In this document: in pieces, positions 57,138-63,304 of the stretch | How positions within the stretch are numbered: the first letter of the stretch is position 1 | How the letters are laid out: each line of letters begins with the position of its first letter | Assembly: GCF_012933385.1 (NCBI RefSeq) | Contig: NZ_JABBPN010000004.1 | Span: 186,001 to 250,000, forward strand | DNA length: 64,000 bases | Direction: 5' to 3' | Source: Paenibacillus lemnae | GTDB lineage: Bacteria > Bacillota > Bacilli > Paenibacillales > Paenibacillaceae | The notes under the pieces: model-generated | The model's database searches: none | The model's input: the letters and a program-made list of their open reading frames with translations, nothing else | Told to the model about the DNA's origin: nothing | Program-made: the position numbers and the translations under genes

Positions 57138-57845
57138 CTATACGCGCAAAAACTTGTATCCAATGCCCCGCACCGTGCCGATGTAACGATGGCCTGAAGC
57201 TTCATCCTCAATTTTACGCCGGAGATTGTGGATGTGAACCATGACAGTGCGGCTGTCGCTACCGCTATCGAGTCCCCAGATCTGTTCGAACAGCTGCTCG
57301 ACACTGAACACACGGTCCGGATACCGCGCCATATGAAGCAGAAGCTGCAGCTCTTTTGCCGGCAGACTCACTTCTTTCCCGTTCACGCGAACCTCTAGAC
57401 GTCCGAAGTGGATGTCCAAGCGCCCGTCGCTCCATAAATGACCGCCTGCATCTGCGTTAACCTTCCCCACGGCCAGCCGCCTGAGCCTGGCCCGAACCCG
57501 CGCTACCATCACGTCAGGATCGAACGGTTTGGTAATATAATCATCGGCATACTCAAGCCCCTGTATCACATCCTCCGCTTCCTTCAGGCTGCTGAGAAAG
57601 ATGACCGGCACATCCGATCGGCTCTTCACTGCTTGAATCCAGTCAGTTCCCTTACCATCAGGCAGCATAATATCACAAATAATCAGATGCGGCTTCCGGA
57701 TTTCCAGCTGAATCGCAGCTTCTGCAAGTGAGGACGCAATGTATGTGATGTAATGTTGATTACTCAAATATATCGAAATTAAATCCGCGATATCCTTGTC
57801 GTCTTCCACCAGCAGAATCTCGCTGCATTCTTTAACTGCTGTCAC
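57138..57845 (-). CDS. OmpR-family response regulator
   Basis: 235 residues. The receiver domain (about 8-122) has the acidic pair EDD, the phosphorylated Asp in ICDIMLPDGKGTDW and the lysine of DYITKPFDPD. The winged-helix domain (about 135-232) ends with VMVHIHNLRRKIEDEASGHR and GTVRGIGYKF. It starts with GTG (57845), overlapping the histidine kinase end by 4 bases. An 11-base direct repeat upstream of the divergent GNAT/ABC operon is a natural target. Confidence 0.94.
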   Translation of the reverse strand: MTAVKECSEILLVEDDKDIADLISIYLSNQHYITYIASSLAEAAIQLEIRKPHLIICDIMLPDGKGTDWIQAVKSRSDVPVIFLSSLKEAEDVIQGLEYADDYITKPFDPDVMVARVRARLRRLAVGKVNADAGGHLWSDGRLDIHFGRLEVRVNGKEVSLPAKELQLLLHMARYPDRVFSVEQLFEQIWGLDSGSDSRTVMVHIHNLRRKIEDEASGHRYIGTVRGIGYKFLRV

Positions 57846-60007
57846 CTTAAAGCGCCCCCCCTCTGTACGATCGGCAGCTCAAAACTGAACTCACTTCCCT
57901 CTCCCGGCTCGCTGACTACCCTGATTTCTCCATGATGATAATGGATGATTTCTTTGCATATCGCCAGGCCCAGCCCGGATCCATTATGGTGAACGGCCGT
58001 TTGCTGCTTGGCTTGCCCGAACCTTTCGAAGATGTGTTGATGCATGTCCCGATCAATACCGACACCCGTATCCCTCACTCCAACCACAGCGCGAGAGCCT
58101 CCATCGGACAACCGGACTATCTGAAGCTTCAGCACAATCACTCCATCTTCCGGTGTATACCGAACAGCATTAGAGATCAGGTTCGACAGCACCTGCTCAA
58201 TGCGGATAGAATCCACTTTAATGAAAGAACCCGCTCCAATTACATCTTCAGGAAGCTGGATCTGACAGTGAATCCCTTTGCTCTCAATCTCCCACTCATA
58301 CTTCAGGAATAATTCCTGCAGGAATGGCACTACCTCTACCTCCTGCATATGAAATCTCACCTGGTTTGTCTCCAGCTTAGTCAGCTCAACCAGATCATGA
58401 ATCATTCGTTCCAGCAGCAGAGATCTTTCATAAATCCGATTCGCATACTTGGGAGCATCCGCCGTGATGATACCGTCGCGGAGCGCTTTGGCGAAGCCTT
58501 TGATGGAGGTGATCGGCGTACTGAGCTCATGAGAAATATTCGAGAGCAGCCGTATACGGAAATGTTCGAATTCTTCCATCTTCTTGTTGGCTTCCTGGAG
58601 CCGGGCATTGCTTTTTTGAAGGGAGTGAGTTCGTTCTGCTACAGTGCGTTCCAATGATCGGTTATTCTCTCTAAGCTGTTCCGACAGCTGCTCTTTCTCC
58701 GCAATCGCCCGCGAGAAGCGTGCCGACAGATTCAATGCCTGGGTAAGCAGAAAAGCGAGCAGGCCAATTGACAGCAAATCGTTAGTCGGCAGCAGTCCTG
58801 TATAAAACATCATGTCGTTTAAAGCAAAAATCGTAAAGAACAGGAAGCCGATCGCTGTTGTCATGGAGCCTTTTCGCCGCCGGATGGCTGAGAGAATGTA
58901 AATATACATGGTGTACATAAGCACGGGAAACAGCACTCCCCATATATAAGGAGTCAGATAATAAGTATATACACGTGCCGGAGTAATCAGGAAAAAGATG
59001 ATAAAGCTGCCGAGCACCAGTCCTGCAGCCTTTGGCACCCAGGATATGGACTCCCTTGGATATTCCCTGCTCACAAATAAAATCAAGCACAGCGCGGTCA
59101 TAGCAATGGATATGTATTCTGCCTTTACCCCCCACTCCCAGGGAAGGCCGGGCAGCAAAAAGAGGGCTGTCGACTCACCCAGTACAATGGTTCTGATCCC
59201 CACCGAGAAGCAGAGCAAACCGAACAGAAATGCAGAGATCTCCTGCCTCCGGTTAACGTATACGAAGAAGTAATAAAGCGCCATTACAAAAAAGATACCG
59301 ACAATGAACACCTGGGCAGACACGCGTGATACCCGCATCCATGCAATTCCGTCAGCCGTTCCAAGCTCCACCCCCTGCCATATCCCGGCATTGCGCTGGG
59401 AGTAATTCGACACTTGAATGATAATCTCGTTCCAGCCTTCACGAGGCTCAAAGTAAATGGTTTTGGGATAACTCCGAGGTGTAGTGCTTGAGGCGTCAGT
59501 TCCTACTAATCCATTGCCGCCCTTCAAGTCACCGTTCACCCAGAGCTGATAAGCAGAAGCAATACTTTTCGGGTATAATCCTATACTTTCACGGGTACGA
59601 GTAAGACTTTCCGGTAAAAGAATGCGGAGGCGATATGTTGCAAAACCTTCGTTAGGCAGCGGCCTGCCGTCTATCGAGTATCCGGTCCACGGCTGGGGTA
59701 TATCTACAATTACTGGTGAAGGCATGGCCAAAGAACGAAAATCCTCCGGTTTCAGCATCTTCCCCCAATACAATTCCCATTCACCGTCCAGCATCAGGCT
59801 TGAATTCACCTCGGCGTTCCAGCCTGAGGCATCCAGCTTACCTTGTTCTGAAGTATATATAGTGGATGTAAAAAGAGTCGGATCATCTCCTGCCAGCCAT
59901 TTTGCACATACAACCAACAGGACAGCTGCGGCCAGCACAGCGGCAAAACCAAACAGGAACGAAAACCGTTTTTTCATGCTGTTTCCAGCCGGCTCAGTAA
60001 TCAACAT
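57842..60007 (-). CDS. Sensor histidine kinase with 7TMR-DISM sensor
   Basis: 721 residues. An N-terminal membrane helix (about 15-38), an extracellular jelly-roll domain (about 60-215, with LDGEWELYWGKMLKPEDF and FATYRLRILLP), seven membrane helices (about 225-435) as in the DISM class, then a coiled coil and the kinase core: phospho-accepting His in ISHELSTPITSIKGF, N box LISNAVRYTPEDG, DTGVGI and GSGLGLAICKE. ATG 60007 has GGAGG 8 bases upstream. The jelly-roll domain often binds carbohydrates; the ligand here is unknown. Confidence 0.92.
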   Translation of the reverse strand: MLITEPAGNSMKKRFSFLFGFAAVLAAAVLLVVCAKWLAGDDPTLFTSTIYTSEQGKLDASGWNAEVNSSLMLDGEWELYWGKMLKPEDFRSLAMPSPVIVDIPQPWTGYSIDGRPLPNEGFATYRLRILLPESLTRTRESIGLYPKSIASAYQLWVNGDLKGGNGLVGTDASSTTPRSYPKTIYFEPREGWNEIIIQVSNYSQRNAGIWQGVELGTADGIAWMRVSRVSAQVFIVGIFFVMALYYFFVYVNRRQEISAFLFGLLCFSVGIRTIVLGESTALFLLPGLPWEWGVKAEYISIAMTALCLILFVSREYPRESISWVPKAAGLVLGSFIIFFLITPARVYTYYLTPYIWGVLFPVLMYTMYIYILSAIRRRKGSMTTAIGFLFFTIFALNDMMFYTGLLPTNDLLSIGLLAFLLTQALNLSARFSRAIAEKEQLSEQLRENNRSLERTVAERTHSLQKSNARLQEANKKMEEFEHFRIRLLSNISHELSTPITSIKGFAKALRDGIITADAPKYANRIYERSLLLERMIHDLVELTKLETNQVRFHMQEVEVVPFLQELFLKYEWEIESKGIHCQIQLPEDVIGAGSFIKVDSIRIEQVLSNLISNAVRYTPEDGVIVLKLQIVRLSDGGSRAVVGVRDTGVGIDRDMHQHIFERFGQAKQQTAVHHNGSGLGLAICKEIIHYHHGEIRVVSEPGEGSEFSFELPIVQRGGALR

Positions 60008-60099: not shown

Positions 60100-60132
60100 C
60101 TTAAACAAAACTTAAACATAACTCATTACAAT
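60100..60132 (+). promoter_or_regulatory. Response-regulator box and promoter of the GNAT/ABC operon
   Basis: Two adjacent 11-base direct repeats, CTTAAACAAAA (60100-60110) and CTTAAACATAA (60111-60121), are followed by TACAAT (60127-60132), a likely -10. The repeats occupy the -35 position, where there is no good -35 hexamer. An 11-base period with TTAAACA is what OmpR/PhoP-type regulators bind. The first short ORF starts 54 bases past the -10. Confidence 0.6.
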
Positions 60133-60185: not shown

Positions 60186-60251
60186 ATGACTTTGATCCGA
60201 TCAACTTCTGCGACTGAAGACCTTCTCAAACCTGGTGCTAGAGAATCATGA
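60186..60251 (+). CDS. Short ORF of 21 codons, possible leader peptide
   Basis: It encodes MTLIRSTSATEDLLKPGARE-S and ends in ATGA, overlapping the start of the GNAT-like gene, so it may couple translation. AAAGGAAG directly abuts the ATG, which is too close; a TTG at 60192, six bases later, is better placed. Either a translated leader that controls the next gene or a real peptide. No homologue is known to me. Confidence 0.4.
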   Translation: MTLIRSTSATEDLLKPGARES

Positions 60252-60775
60252 GCTGCTATTTTTCAGTATGTTCGACTTATAACTATCAACAGCAGTATAT
60301 GGACTTTTTGCTGGCACATTACAGCGATTTGAATTTGTTGTATCCCTTTCCTGTTTCACTGAGTTATATCGCCAGTCCTTTGTTAATGGAAGGTACAGCT
60401 GTGCTCTGTTTTGATGATGAGGATCAGCTGTCAGGTGCATTCGGCTATATTCACGGAACCGGTGAACAAGATTACAAGGACCGGCATGTGATCCAGCTTC
60501 AGGTGGCATATATTGTGGAACATCACCGGAGCACCCGAATGTTCTATGAAGCGCTTCAATTCCTCGTCAGTCACCTGTCGGATCAGGAGGAAGAGCGCGT
60601 AGAGGAAATCAGGTTTTGGATACCGGGCGAGCCTCGTACTAGAAGATTATGTTCACGATTTGCCGATCTGCTATCTACCGTTGATCAGACACAGGGTTGT
60701 TTGGACGAATACAGGATAAACGTAAAGCATCTGCAAAAATATGTATCTACATTCGGGACACGCTCTTTGGCCTGA
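60248..60775 (+). CDS. GNAT-like acyltransferase domain protein A
   Basis: 175 residues. A GNAT fold is suggested by the central strands (GTAVLCFDDEDQLSGAFGYI, VIQLQVAYIVEHHRSTRMFY) and the helix after the acyl-CoA loop region (EALQFLVSHL). The typical Q/RxxGxG/A loop is not clean (EHHRSTRMF). It is a distant paralogue of the product at 62551-63045, which has AMLAKNYRGSRIFFEGLRDL at the matching place. It stands before an ABC exporter and starts inside the stop of a 21-codon ORF. Substrate unknown; peptide acylation is a possibility. Confidence 0.65.
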   Translation: MSCYFSVCSTYNYQQQYMDFLLAHYSDLNLLYPFPVSLSYIASPLLMEGTAVLCFDDEDQLSGAFGYIHGTGEQDYKDRHVIQLQVAYIVEHHRSTRMFYEALQFLVSHLSDQEEERVEEIRFWIPGEPRTRRLCSRFADLLSTVDQTQGCLDEYRINVKHLQKYVSTFGTRSLA

Positions 60776-60793
60776 GTTATAACGGGAGGAAGC

Positions 60794-62554
60794 ATGAGCA
60801 ACGTCATCCGTCACTTTGTAACATTTCTGAGTCCCCGCCGAGGTTTGGCAATAGCTTTTTTCCTAACGTCATTCATTGAACTGACCGTCTTGTCCCTGGC
60901 GCCGCTTAGTTTCAAATTTATGATCGACTATGCCATTGAACCGGGAGATCGTAACGCATTTTTCCTCATCCTCGGCATTCTCGGCAGTATCGGTGCCTGC
61001 GGTGTCGCCGCTGGACTGATAAGTGACCGGCTGCTGGCCACCATACTAGCTGAGGTGCAGCAGCAGTTAAGGCGGCGATTGTTCTCCCACCTGCAGCATT
61101 TAAACATGGAACGCTTTCAGGCCAGCCGCGCTGGAGAGCACGTGTCCCGCTTTACAGTGGATCTGCCCGCTATCGAAGGCGCCATGATGTCCATGATGAC
61201 AATCGGACTGCAATCGGTTGCTGTAGTCAGCATCAGCGTTGCCATTCTGTTCACTCTTCAGTGGAGCATGGCCCTGCTCATCCTGGCGGGAGCCAGCCTG
61301 ATCTACTTGGGCCCGTATCTGCTGTCGCGAAGGGCGCGAAGAGTTTATGGCGCTTATCGTGATGAGCTGGAAGCCATGACCGGGGATGTTCAGGAAAATG
61401 TCCGCGGCCAGATGATCATCCAAGGATTCCATGTACAACAAACACAAATTCACAAGTTTGAGAAACGGCTGCAGCAGTTATTCATTCGTCATGTTCATTA
61501 CAATGTGACCAACGCTTCGCTTGACCGGCTGCCTATAATCAGCCTGCTGCTAGTAAACTTCTCCATTATCGGATTTGGATCCTATCTTGCCCTTTTGGGC
61601 CAAATTACGCTGGGTACGCTGGTCGTCTTTTTCACCATTTATACATCGATGGGCAATGCGGTTTATAATCTTACGGCAATCCTCCCCTCCTTTGCCAGCG
61701 CTCGTGTCAGTTTGGAACGTTTGTCTGAGATGCTGACAGATGAGGAGAAACAACAGGCTGAACAGAAAGATTCAGCAGCACTGCAGCCATGCCCTGAAAT
61801 TATCGCCGATGGGCTCGTGTTTCGTTATCCTGGCAAGGAACCTGCGCTGCAAGGCATCAGCTTCACTATTCCGGCTGGAACAACTGCCGCATTCGTCGGT
61901 CCCAGCGGTTCCGGAAAGAGCACGATCCTGCAGCTGATCCTGGGGCTGAGACAGCCCTCCGGCGGCCGGCTGACTGTTGGTGGAATCGATATCCTGCACG
62001 TGGACGCAGAGTCATACCGCAGCCGGGTTGGCACTGTATTTCAAGACAGCTTTTTGTTCCGTGGTACGGTTAAGGATAATATTCTGATCGGCAGGCCCGA
62101 CGCTTCTATGGAGGATGTGGTCAGAGCCGCAGAACAGGCATCGTTACATGAATTTATTACTGGACTTCCAGATGGCTATGATACCGCTGTTCTTGAAGAT
62201 GGCACTAACTTTTCCGGCGGACAAAAGCAGCGGATTGCTATTGCACGAGCACTGCTTCGGGAACCATACCTGCTGCTCCTGGATGAAATTACATCATCGC
62301 TGGATCCGCTGTCCGAAGCCGCTGTCACCCATACCATCCAAAACCGCTCGAAAAAGCGTACTGCCGTCATCATATCCCACCGTCTTTCTGTCATCAATAC
62401 TGCTGACGTAATCTTCGTCATGAACGAAGGAAGGCTGGTTGACAGCGGCCGTCATGATGAGCTCTTGAGACGTTGTCCTCTATATTTACAGATGTGGAAA
62501 CAGCAAGACGAAGATCATCTCAATATGATGAAAAAGGAGACGTGGACATCATGA
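60794..62554 (+). CDS. ABC exporter, fused permease and ATPase
   Basis: 586 residues. Six membrane helices (about 15-300) and an ATPase domain (about 335-570) with Walker A VGPSGSGKST, Q-loop FQDSFLFRGTVKDNI, signature NFSGGQKQR, Walker B YLLLLDEITSSLD and H-loop IISHRLSV. It is a half-transporter of the MsbA/LmrA/peptide-exporter type, without a C39 peptidase domain. Sits between two GNAT-like genes; the downstream one overlaps its stop by 4 bases. Expected to export the product of this operon. Confidence 0.92.
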   Translation: MSNVIRHFVTFLSPRRGLAIAFFLTSFIELTVLSLAPLSFKFMIDYAIEPGDRNAFFLILGILGSIGACGVAAGLISDRLLATILAEVQQQLRRRLFSHLQHLNMERFQASRAGEHVSRFTVDLPAIEGAMMSMMTIGLQSVAVVSISVAILFTLQWSMALLILAGASLIYLGPYLLSRRARRVYGAYRDELEAMTGDVQENVRGQMIIQGFHVQQTQIHKFEKRLQQLFIRHVHYNVTNASLDRLPIISLLLVNFSIIGFGSYLALLGQITLGTLVVFFTIYTSMGNAVYNLTAILPSFASARVSLERLSEMLTDEEKQQAEQKDSAALQPCPEIIADGLVFRYPGKEPALQGISFTIPAGTTAAFVGPSGSGKSTILQLILGLRQPSGGRLTVGGIDILHVDAESYRSRVGTVFQDSFLFRGTVKDNILIGRPDASMEDVVRAAEQASLHEFITGLPDGYDTAVLEDGTNFSGGQKQRIAIARALLREPYLLLLDEITSSLDPLSEAAVTHTIQNRSKKRTAVIISHRLSVINTADVIFVMNEGRLVDSGRHDELLRRCPLYLQMWKQQDEDHLNMMKKETWTS

Positions 62555-63045
62555 AAGCAACCGTCAGACGATGTCATCTTGACGCGGATTATGCTTCCTT
62601 TTCGAGATTTTATCTGCATAACTGCCGGGAATTCGATCATCACTATATGCTCCAGGATGCACTGGTTCATCTGATACATACGGTAACCGATGCTCAAATT
62701 CTGCTCTTTCATGACACAGAAGATCAACTGGTCGCCTTTATTCAATACCGTTTCGATGAAGATCAAGATTACGTGTTCATCGACGCTGCCATGCTCGCCA
62801 AAAATTATCGAGGAAGCAGAATCTTTTTTGAAGGACTCCGGGACTTGGCTAAAATTATCGCAGAAGATCATCCGGGGGTGCATACTGTCGTTTTTCATGC
62901 TTCAGCCGATAACCTCTACATCAATCGCATTTACAGCAAATTCGCACAACGGATAGAAGTCAGGGAGCGTAATGGCCGGATCGAACATGTCTACAAAGTC
63001 AGCCTAAAAGACCTAATGACATATGTAAGGCTGGATCGTGCATAG
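62551..63045 (+). CDS. GNAT-like acyltransferase domain protein B
   Basis: 164 residues. GNAT elements are clearer than in copy A: YVFIDAAMLAKNYRGSRIFF with the acyl-CoA loop, EGLRDLAKIIAEDHPGVHTV, then FHASADNLYINRIYSKFAQR. The ATG at 62551 overlaps the ABC gene's stop (ATGA), with AAGGAG 11 bases upstream; the in-frame extension to 62473 would lie inside the ABC gene. It precedes a 39-codon ORF with a very strong ribosome site. Confidence 0.75.
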   Translation: MKATVRRCHLDADYASFSRFYLHNCREFDHHYMLQDALVHLIHTVTDAQILLFHDTEDQLVAFIQYRFDEDQDYVFIDAAMLAKNYRGSRIFFEGLRDLAKIIAEDHPGVHTVVFHASADNLYINRIYSKFAQRIEVRERNGRIEHVYKVSLKDLMTYVRLDRA

Positions 63046-63092
63046 TTTCCTGATTTTTATTATCAACCCAATCTTGAAAGGAGGTGATTCAC

Positions 63093-63212
63093 ATGGTGCC
63101 AATGAGACCGAATTTTGGTAAGGAAGATAGCAACAAAATCAAAATCAGCCGTATCACAAATGTTTTGAAGCTGAATGAACAGCTGAGAACATCTGCAGCA
63201 GTATCCAAATAA
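63093..63212 (+). CDS. Short ORF of 39 codons, candidate peptide precursor
   Basis: The ATG (63093) follows AAAGGAGGTGATTCAC, which is almost fully complementary to the 16S rRNA end, at a spacing of 8 bases. The product is basic: MVPMRPNFGKEDSNKIKISR then ITNVLKLNEQLRTSAAVSK. No cysteine, no membrane segment. Last gene of the GNAT/ABC operon, 47 bases after copy B, with a terminator 60 bases downstream. It could be a peptide precursor modified and exported by the preceding proteins, or a small regulatory protein. No homologue is known to me. Confidence 0.6.
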   Translation: MVPMRPNFGKEDSNKIKISRITNVLKLNEQLRTSAAVSK

Positions 63213-63272
63213 TCCCCCCCGATTAAAGGAGCTTTACGCTGCACACCTTACAATCATGCAGTCATTGCAGGC

Positions 63273-63304
63273 AAGCCGGTAGTTTTTACTGGCTTGTTTT
63301 TTTA
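63273..63304 (+). terminator. Terminator of the GNAT/ABC operon
   Basis: AAGCCGGTA pairs with TACTGGCTT (one G-T pair), then G and seven T. Confidence 0.85.

Follow-up and report, generated by a model that had tools for sequence, protein, structure and literature searches.

A conserved small peptide gene beside paired GNAT-like genes in Paenibacillus lemnae and its relatives: a candidate peptide-modification module

In the selidamides (phaeornamide, kamptornamide and the nostolysamides) a GNAT enzyme acylates a ribosomal peptide, often in company with an ATP-binding cassette (ABC) transporter, and in the GNAT clusters described in the accessible part of that account the precursors bear a Nif11 or NHLP leader and lanthionine synthetases are often encoded as well (PMC13060382). 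The same text describes the nostolysamide enzyme NpuN as having two GNAT domains, one without a clear acyl-coenzyme A (acyl-CoA) loop, and names the lipolanthines and goadvionins, class III lanthipeptides, as ribosomal peptides that a GNAT acylates at the N-terminus (PMC13060382). From the accessible portions of two further papers, phaeornamide has a peptidase-containing transporter (PMC9505594), and albusnodin is a lasso peptide acetylated on Lys by a GNAT of its own operon (PMC8498205). Here we describe a locus from a 64,000-nucleotide stretch of Paenibacillus lemnae (contig NZ_JABBPN010000004.1, positions 186,001 to 250,000; hereafter the window, numbered from its first base), in which a 39-codon open reading frame (ORF) closes an operon that also encodes an ABC exporter and two GNAT-like proteins, A and B. 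The small ORF is a genuine gene that is under selection and travels with the GNAT pair, and we propose that its product may be a peptide acylated by that pair.

A peptide gene linked to two GNAT genes

The 39-codon ORF (63093–63212, + strand) follows a Shine-Dalgarno sequence, AAAGGAGGTGAT (63077–63088, + strand), read from the sequence. Its product belongs to a conserved family of cationic peptides, 30–44 residues long, of which the wider set of loci yielded 115 copies, 112 of them unique (peptides scoring 20 bits or less were excluded). Cysteine occurs in 0 of the 112. The family is marked by M-[FIYV]-P at or close to the N-terminus, by [NS][ED]xxR toward the C-terminus and often by a final K: the second residue is one of F, I, Y and V in 108 of 112 and Pro falls at residues 3–5 in 111, while near the C-terminus an acidic residue (112 of 112) precedes an Arg (111), and Lys is the last residue in 83. 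The N-terminus is conserved, and no Lys position is universal. With a median net charge of +4, the family bears out an earlier note, made by a model from the window's sequence, which had spoken of a small basic peptide. Some members carry a Q-P repeat tail after the conserved Arg (L170:6056-6184, L172:6449-6577 and L173:6355-6483).

Selection on the encoded protein is evident from a ratio of nonsynonymous to synonymous substitution (dN/dS) of about 0.20 over 33 independent close pairs, which indicates purifying selection. Of the 115 copies, 113 have a Shine-Dalgarno match of at least 5 bases and 113 begin with ATG, counts that are favoured by our having picked start codons partly by these same features. 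Among 38 members searched against Pfam and NCBIfam, the best match was a weak HTH_3 hit in one member at 0.088; no leader family of the Nif11 or NHLP kind that marks selidamide precursors was found in these 38.

Of 67 loci fetched by homology to GNAT A, 58 gave a peptide homologue with an iterated profile built from 10 starting members. These 67 are a partial fetch of the genomes matching GNAT A, to which later loci were added, and a further 40 loci came from 38 of the 40 genomes of other families that had a peptide match. After removal of 19 duplicates from 140 loci, 121 distinct loci remained. GNAT B is present in 112, of which 109 also carry the peptide and 110 GNAT A; in the nine that lack B a single peptide was found. 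Most loci that seemed to have a single GNAT in a first pass were gene-caller misses, recovered by profile search. The linkage is seen from either side: loci found through GNAT A (n = 81) include 74 with B, and those found through the peptide in other families (n = 40) have B in 38 and A in 37. The earlier note had made its proposal depend on conservation of the 39-residue product with the operon, and the peptide accompanies the GNATs in 71 of the 74 B-containing loci reached through GNAT A.

In a sample of 295 genomes of the family, GNAT A occurs in 69, the peptide in 62 and both in 60 (lists matched by hand). The peptide is thus present in 60 of 69 genomes with GNAT A versus 2 of 226 others (Fisher 3e-50, kinship ignored). 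Because the statistic ignores kinship and GNAT-A loci supplied the training set for the peptide model, the telling part is the low rate without GNAT A. The two exceptions are a partial match (G195) and a weak one (G322), and neither A nor B was found in the 15–16 kb fetched around them. Two loci, L078 and L080, have A alone and no peptide. Five others, L101–L105, each hold two A-like GNATs of another subfamily (at ~6.1–8.6 kb in the locus) and no detectable peptide.

The trio is retained through rearrangement. The order ABC-B-peptide-A is found in 30 loci, A-ABC-B-peptide (that of the window) in 25, A-B-peptide in 22, B-peptide-A in 15 and peptide-A-B in 6, with others rarer. Where the peptide precedes A, its stop codon runs into the start codon of A as TAATG in 43 of 59 junctions. 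On a quick tree of GNAT B, which leaves out L074 and the loci lacking B and has no order label for 4 of its 111 rows, gene order changes six times by parsimony, with the A-B-peptide trio kept together throughout; 31 of the 108 inner branches are strongly supported, and these alone force fewer order changes. Exporter presence requires 21 changes on the same tree. Since the trio survives reordering, while an exporter homologue (at least 250 bits, same strand, within ~2.7 kb; exporters elsewhere uncounted) is near only 63 of the 112 GNAT-B loci, the conserved unit is the peptide with its two GNATs. The exporter, which the earlier note counted as a member of the operon, is indeed one in the window, but it is an accessory rather than part of the core.

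The module occurs in about one-fifth of sampled genomes, both of the family (62 of 295) and of the order, where a peptide search gave 57 of 296 genomes in 18 of 48 genera, and it is also found in Brevibacillus. A scan of named genomes with GNAT A, whose reach was limited to close relatives, gave 33 loci in Paenibacillus, Fontibacillus and Brevibacillus. In a sample of the phylum, the peptide (at 0.001) or GNAT B (at 1e-15) was found in 1 of 348 genomes, that of the host itself; these two surveys showed no case beyond Paenibacillus, its relatives and Brevibacillus.

The GNAT pair and its possible action on the peptide

GNAT A (60248–60775, + strand; 175 aa) and GNAT B (62551–63045, + strand; 164 aa) had been called distant paralogues, and a profile comparison agrees: hhalign aligns them with 99.8% probability (E 7e-30, 18% identity), and a direct search with A recovers B at 25% identity (E 6.3e-4). 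Both are assigned to the GNAT superfamily, B by a match to PF00583 (22.7 bits; cut-off 20.7) together with its predicted fold, and A by its predicted fold and the profile match to B. The window copy of A has no Pfam match, and 12 of 48 of its relatives match PF00583 at 0.1 or better. AlphaFold2 models of both are GNAT folds, with predicted local distance difference test (pLDDT) values of 92.7 for A and 92.9 for B. In structure searches the top VIA row for B was 8osp (Z 17.2, root-mean-square deviation (rmsd) 2.0, 148 aligned) and that for A was 4pv6 (Z 14.3, rmsd 2.3, 141 aligned), each tied with other GNATs. RimI, Naa50 and other N-terminal acetyltransferases are near the top of the fold lists; since other GNATs score within 1 Z of them, the lists single out no substrate class.

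The two proteins differ at the active site. In GNAT B, Phe92, Tyr128 and Lys130 are found in 111 of 111 aligned rows and Arg87 in 110. We take Tyr128 to occupy the usual general-acid place of GNAT enzymes. The aligned position of GNAT A, 135, is occupied by F in 60 of 113 rows, by C and by L in 20 each and by Tyr in just 1, while G70 and T71 of A are present in all 113. (The window is counted once in these 111- and 113-row sets; another row set, which excluded L074, L101–L105 and proteins of at least 260 residues, counted it twice.) Because the Tyr is kept in B and nearly always lost in A, we infer one catalyst and one partner, with B probably the catalytic acyltransferase; A may be its partner or a second acyltransferase.

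These observations can be drawn together as a peptide-modification module, in which a leaderless, Cys-free cationic peptide would be acylated by GNAT B with the help of GNAT A and sometimes exported, a proposal that on balance we think probable. A heteromeric A-B pair would bind the 30–44 residue peptide, with A serving as peptide-binding partner or second acyltransferase, and B would move an acyl group from acyl-CoA, or from an acylated acyl carrier protein, onto an amino group of the peptide. The most likely site would be the N-terminal amine of Met1, favoured because the M-[FIYV]-P start is conserved and no Lys position is universal; in the accessible part of another study, the lack of a conserved Lys was likewise argued to point toward N-terminal acylation (PMC12636437). 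Where an exporter is encoded alongside, as in about half of the loci, it may release the product without cleavage of a leader.

Several findings weigh against this proposal. Conservation extends over the whole peptide rather than separating a leader from a variable core, a pattern that would suit a small structural subunit as well, and in a Pseudomonas cluster, as far as the accessible part of that study describes it, a GNAT was inactive on the full-length precursor (PMC12636437). The canonical acyl-CoA loop is given, in the part of the source available, as Q/R-x-x-G-x-G/A (PMC13060382); here it departs from that form, reading R-x-[ST]-R-x-F in most rows of B and being looser still in A, where the second R is present in 50 of 113. 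No exporter homologue is close by in 49 of the 112 GNAT-B loci, and no protease or immunity gene was recognized by eye among the 22 largest neighbour families. The peptide is missing in cis from three GNAT-B loci: L074, which is interrupted by a run of N, L089, where a copy lies ~21 kb away in the same genome (L108), and L214, where none was detected. An apparent fusion of GNAT B to a 1832-residue protein in L074 was rejected as an artefact of the run of N.

A possible but rather less likely explanation is that the peptide is a small subunit or adaptor, holding A and B together or steering the pair to some other target, be it a protein or a small molecule. Conservation along the whole peptide, including the Arg of 111 of 112 members, would suit such a part, as would the near-constant absence of the catalytic Tyr from A, and the overlap of the peptide stop with the start of A (43 of 59 junctions) could match the amounts of the two products. 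Six loci, however, have two peptides beside one enzyme pair (one second copy scores just 18 bits), and unlinked copies are present in three genomes (L106, L107 and L108). Such duplicate and unlinked copies occur with precursor peptides and favour that role, and an exporter, which a subunit would not need, is found near 63 of 112 loci.

The combination of a GNAT with an ABC exporter is a familiar resistance pairing, and in the window's clade a two-component system adjoins the operon, so the genes could be read as a detoxification cassette that acetylates an antibiotic and pumps it out, the short ORF being a regulatory leader peptide. We consider this improbable: just 9 of the 121 loci have the ORF ahead of the two GNATs (six pAB and one each pABA, pABC and pBA), most having it at the end or in the middle, the ORF is under selection at the protein level, and unlinked copies of it exist. 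Least probable of all is a toxin-antitoxin or phage-defence module, for, although GNAT toxins are known and a small gene does adjoin the GNATs here, PADLOC gave no match for A, B or the peptide and matched the ABC protein to ATPase-type models only, the 38 peptide members searched contain no DNA-binding family beyond the one weak HTH_3 hit at 0.088, and no plasmid homologue of GNAT A was found at 1e-5.

If the peptide is indeed acylated by the pair, a bolder claim would be that such peptides form a new class of ribosomal product, matured by nothing more than a GNAT enzyme split over two proteins. This enzyme would acylate the N-terminal Met, left free on a leaderless peptide that retains its start residue, and would yield a minimal acylated signal or antimicrobial linked with a two-component system of its own. 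We offer this extension tentatively and regard it as doubtful.

Exporter, regulators and other neighbours

The remainder of the operon is as the earlier note had laid it out, with every part in place, including the four-base ATGA overlaps at two junctions (21-codon ORF/A and ABC/B) and an intrinsic terminator at the operon end (63269–63299, + strand; a 14-pair stem followed by a T run). The exporter (60794–62554, + strand; 586 aa) has membrane (PF00664) and ATPase (PF00005) domains and no peptidase domain. An exporter of the peptidase type was considered and rejected, as no peptidase family was found in the five ABC proteins scanned, that of the window and four others. Two longer exporters among the five (L086:3908-6055 and L054:5647-7806) carry a C-terminal cNMP-binding domain (PF00027) that the window's exporter does not have.

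The 21-codon ORF (60186–60251, + strand), which the note had also drawn into the system, falls outside it. It sits in extra bases that separate a ribosome site from the start of GNAT A, and an alignment of 12 upstream regions (the window and 11 relatives) shows that it is not conserved; as a second peptide it was rejected on the same ground. Ten of the 11 relatives have no ORF with a ribosome site adjoining A. The eleventh, L053, has an unrelated 12-codon ORF there with a ribosome site, so the extra bases arose in two lineages or in their ancestor. Differing short ORFs before GNAT A have thus been made by extra bases in two related loci. In the window, translation of GNAT A may be coupled to the 21-codon ORF through their ATGA overlap.

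Upstream of the operon and divergent from it are genes for a 7TMR-DISM histidine kinase (57842–60007, - strand; PF07695, PF00512, PF02518) and its partner, an OmpR-type response regulator (57138–57845, - strand; PF00072, PF00486), whose gene overlaps that of the kinase by 4 bases. The kinase is a probable regulator of the operon. Between them and the operon is a putative operator, the direct repeat CTTAAAC-AAAA-CTTAAAC (60100–60117, + strand) with an 11-base period, which precedes a -10-like TACAAT (60127–60132). Kinase-like genes of one cluster are near 22 loci, 16 of the genes lying divergent upstream, and in the window's clade a kinase and an OmpR-type regulator diverge from the operon in 12 loci. 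The pattern CTTAAACN5TTAAAC is present in the shared intergenic region of 12 of 12 loci with a directly divergent kinase. Only 13 such sites occur in 1.64 Mb of loci, the thirteenth being in L180, another locus with a kinase of this family, and the exact repeat occurs once in the 4.59 Mb host genome. A wider regulon was not apparent there, matches with two or fewer mismatches numbering 37 versus 61 for a reversed control pattern. The repeat is absent from L058, L060 and L061, which have a kinase of the same cluster nearby, so control of the operon by the two-component system is likely in the window's clade only; there the system would probably govern both the module and itself through one shared operator. 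A large hybrid kinase that clusters with the window's kinase lies near the A-like GNAT pair of L102 and of L105.

Besides the ABC gene and the two-component pair, no neighbour family, among the 22 largest, is present in more than 11 loci, and by eye these families include neither lanthionine synthetases nor lasso enzymes. This is consistent with the note's statement that the operon has no classic peptide-modifying enzyme. At two loci (L063:5953-8933 and L072:5322-8464) the GNAT pair and peptide are just downstream of an ABC gene and what looks by eye like a PqqD-type ORF, which together resemble a partial lasso cluster; as no lasso cyclase was identified, a lasso cluster as partner was rejected.

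Relation to known peptide-modification systems

These findings suggest a route to a modified peptide, shared across relatives of Paenibacillus and Brevibacillus, for which the literature covered (titles and the beginnings of abstracts, with few subscription journals) holds no description of the peptide or of the GNAT gene pair. Should the peptide prove to be acylated, the module would rank with the smallest systems for modifying a ribosomal peptide: it consists of one ~35-codon gene and two enzymes of about 170 residues, and it lacks both a leader and a ring-forming enzyme. It would also illustrate how a two-domain GNAT arrangement can come apart as separate proteins, one catalytic and the other probably not. 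The module is compact enough to be reconstructed in a laboratory strain. None of the known acylated-peptide systems compared, so far as the accessible parts of their accounts describe them, has two separate GNATs together with a leaderless peptide of 30–44 residues.

Leaderless bacteriocins and phenol-soluble modulins are short peptides that keep their start Met and leave the cell through an ABC exporter. We know of no paired GNATs in these systems. The peptide described here is short and cationic, and its exporter is optional. The locus differs from those of albusnodin, in that lasso enzymes are absent from the 22 largest neighbour families, and of the lipolanthines and goadvionins, in that all 112 peptides are free of Cys and those same families include no synthetase. 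The selidamides carry their fatty acyl group on the side chain of Lys or ornithine; in the peptides described here no position is always Lys. If the peptide is a precursor, the locus resembles theirs in that a GNAT gene adjoins the peptide gene (71 of 74 and 38 of 40 loci), and it departs from them in its leaderless, Cys-free peptide of 30–44 residues, its two separate GNAT genes and its optional exporter without a peptidase domain.

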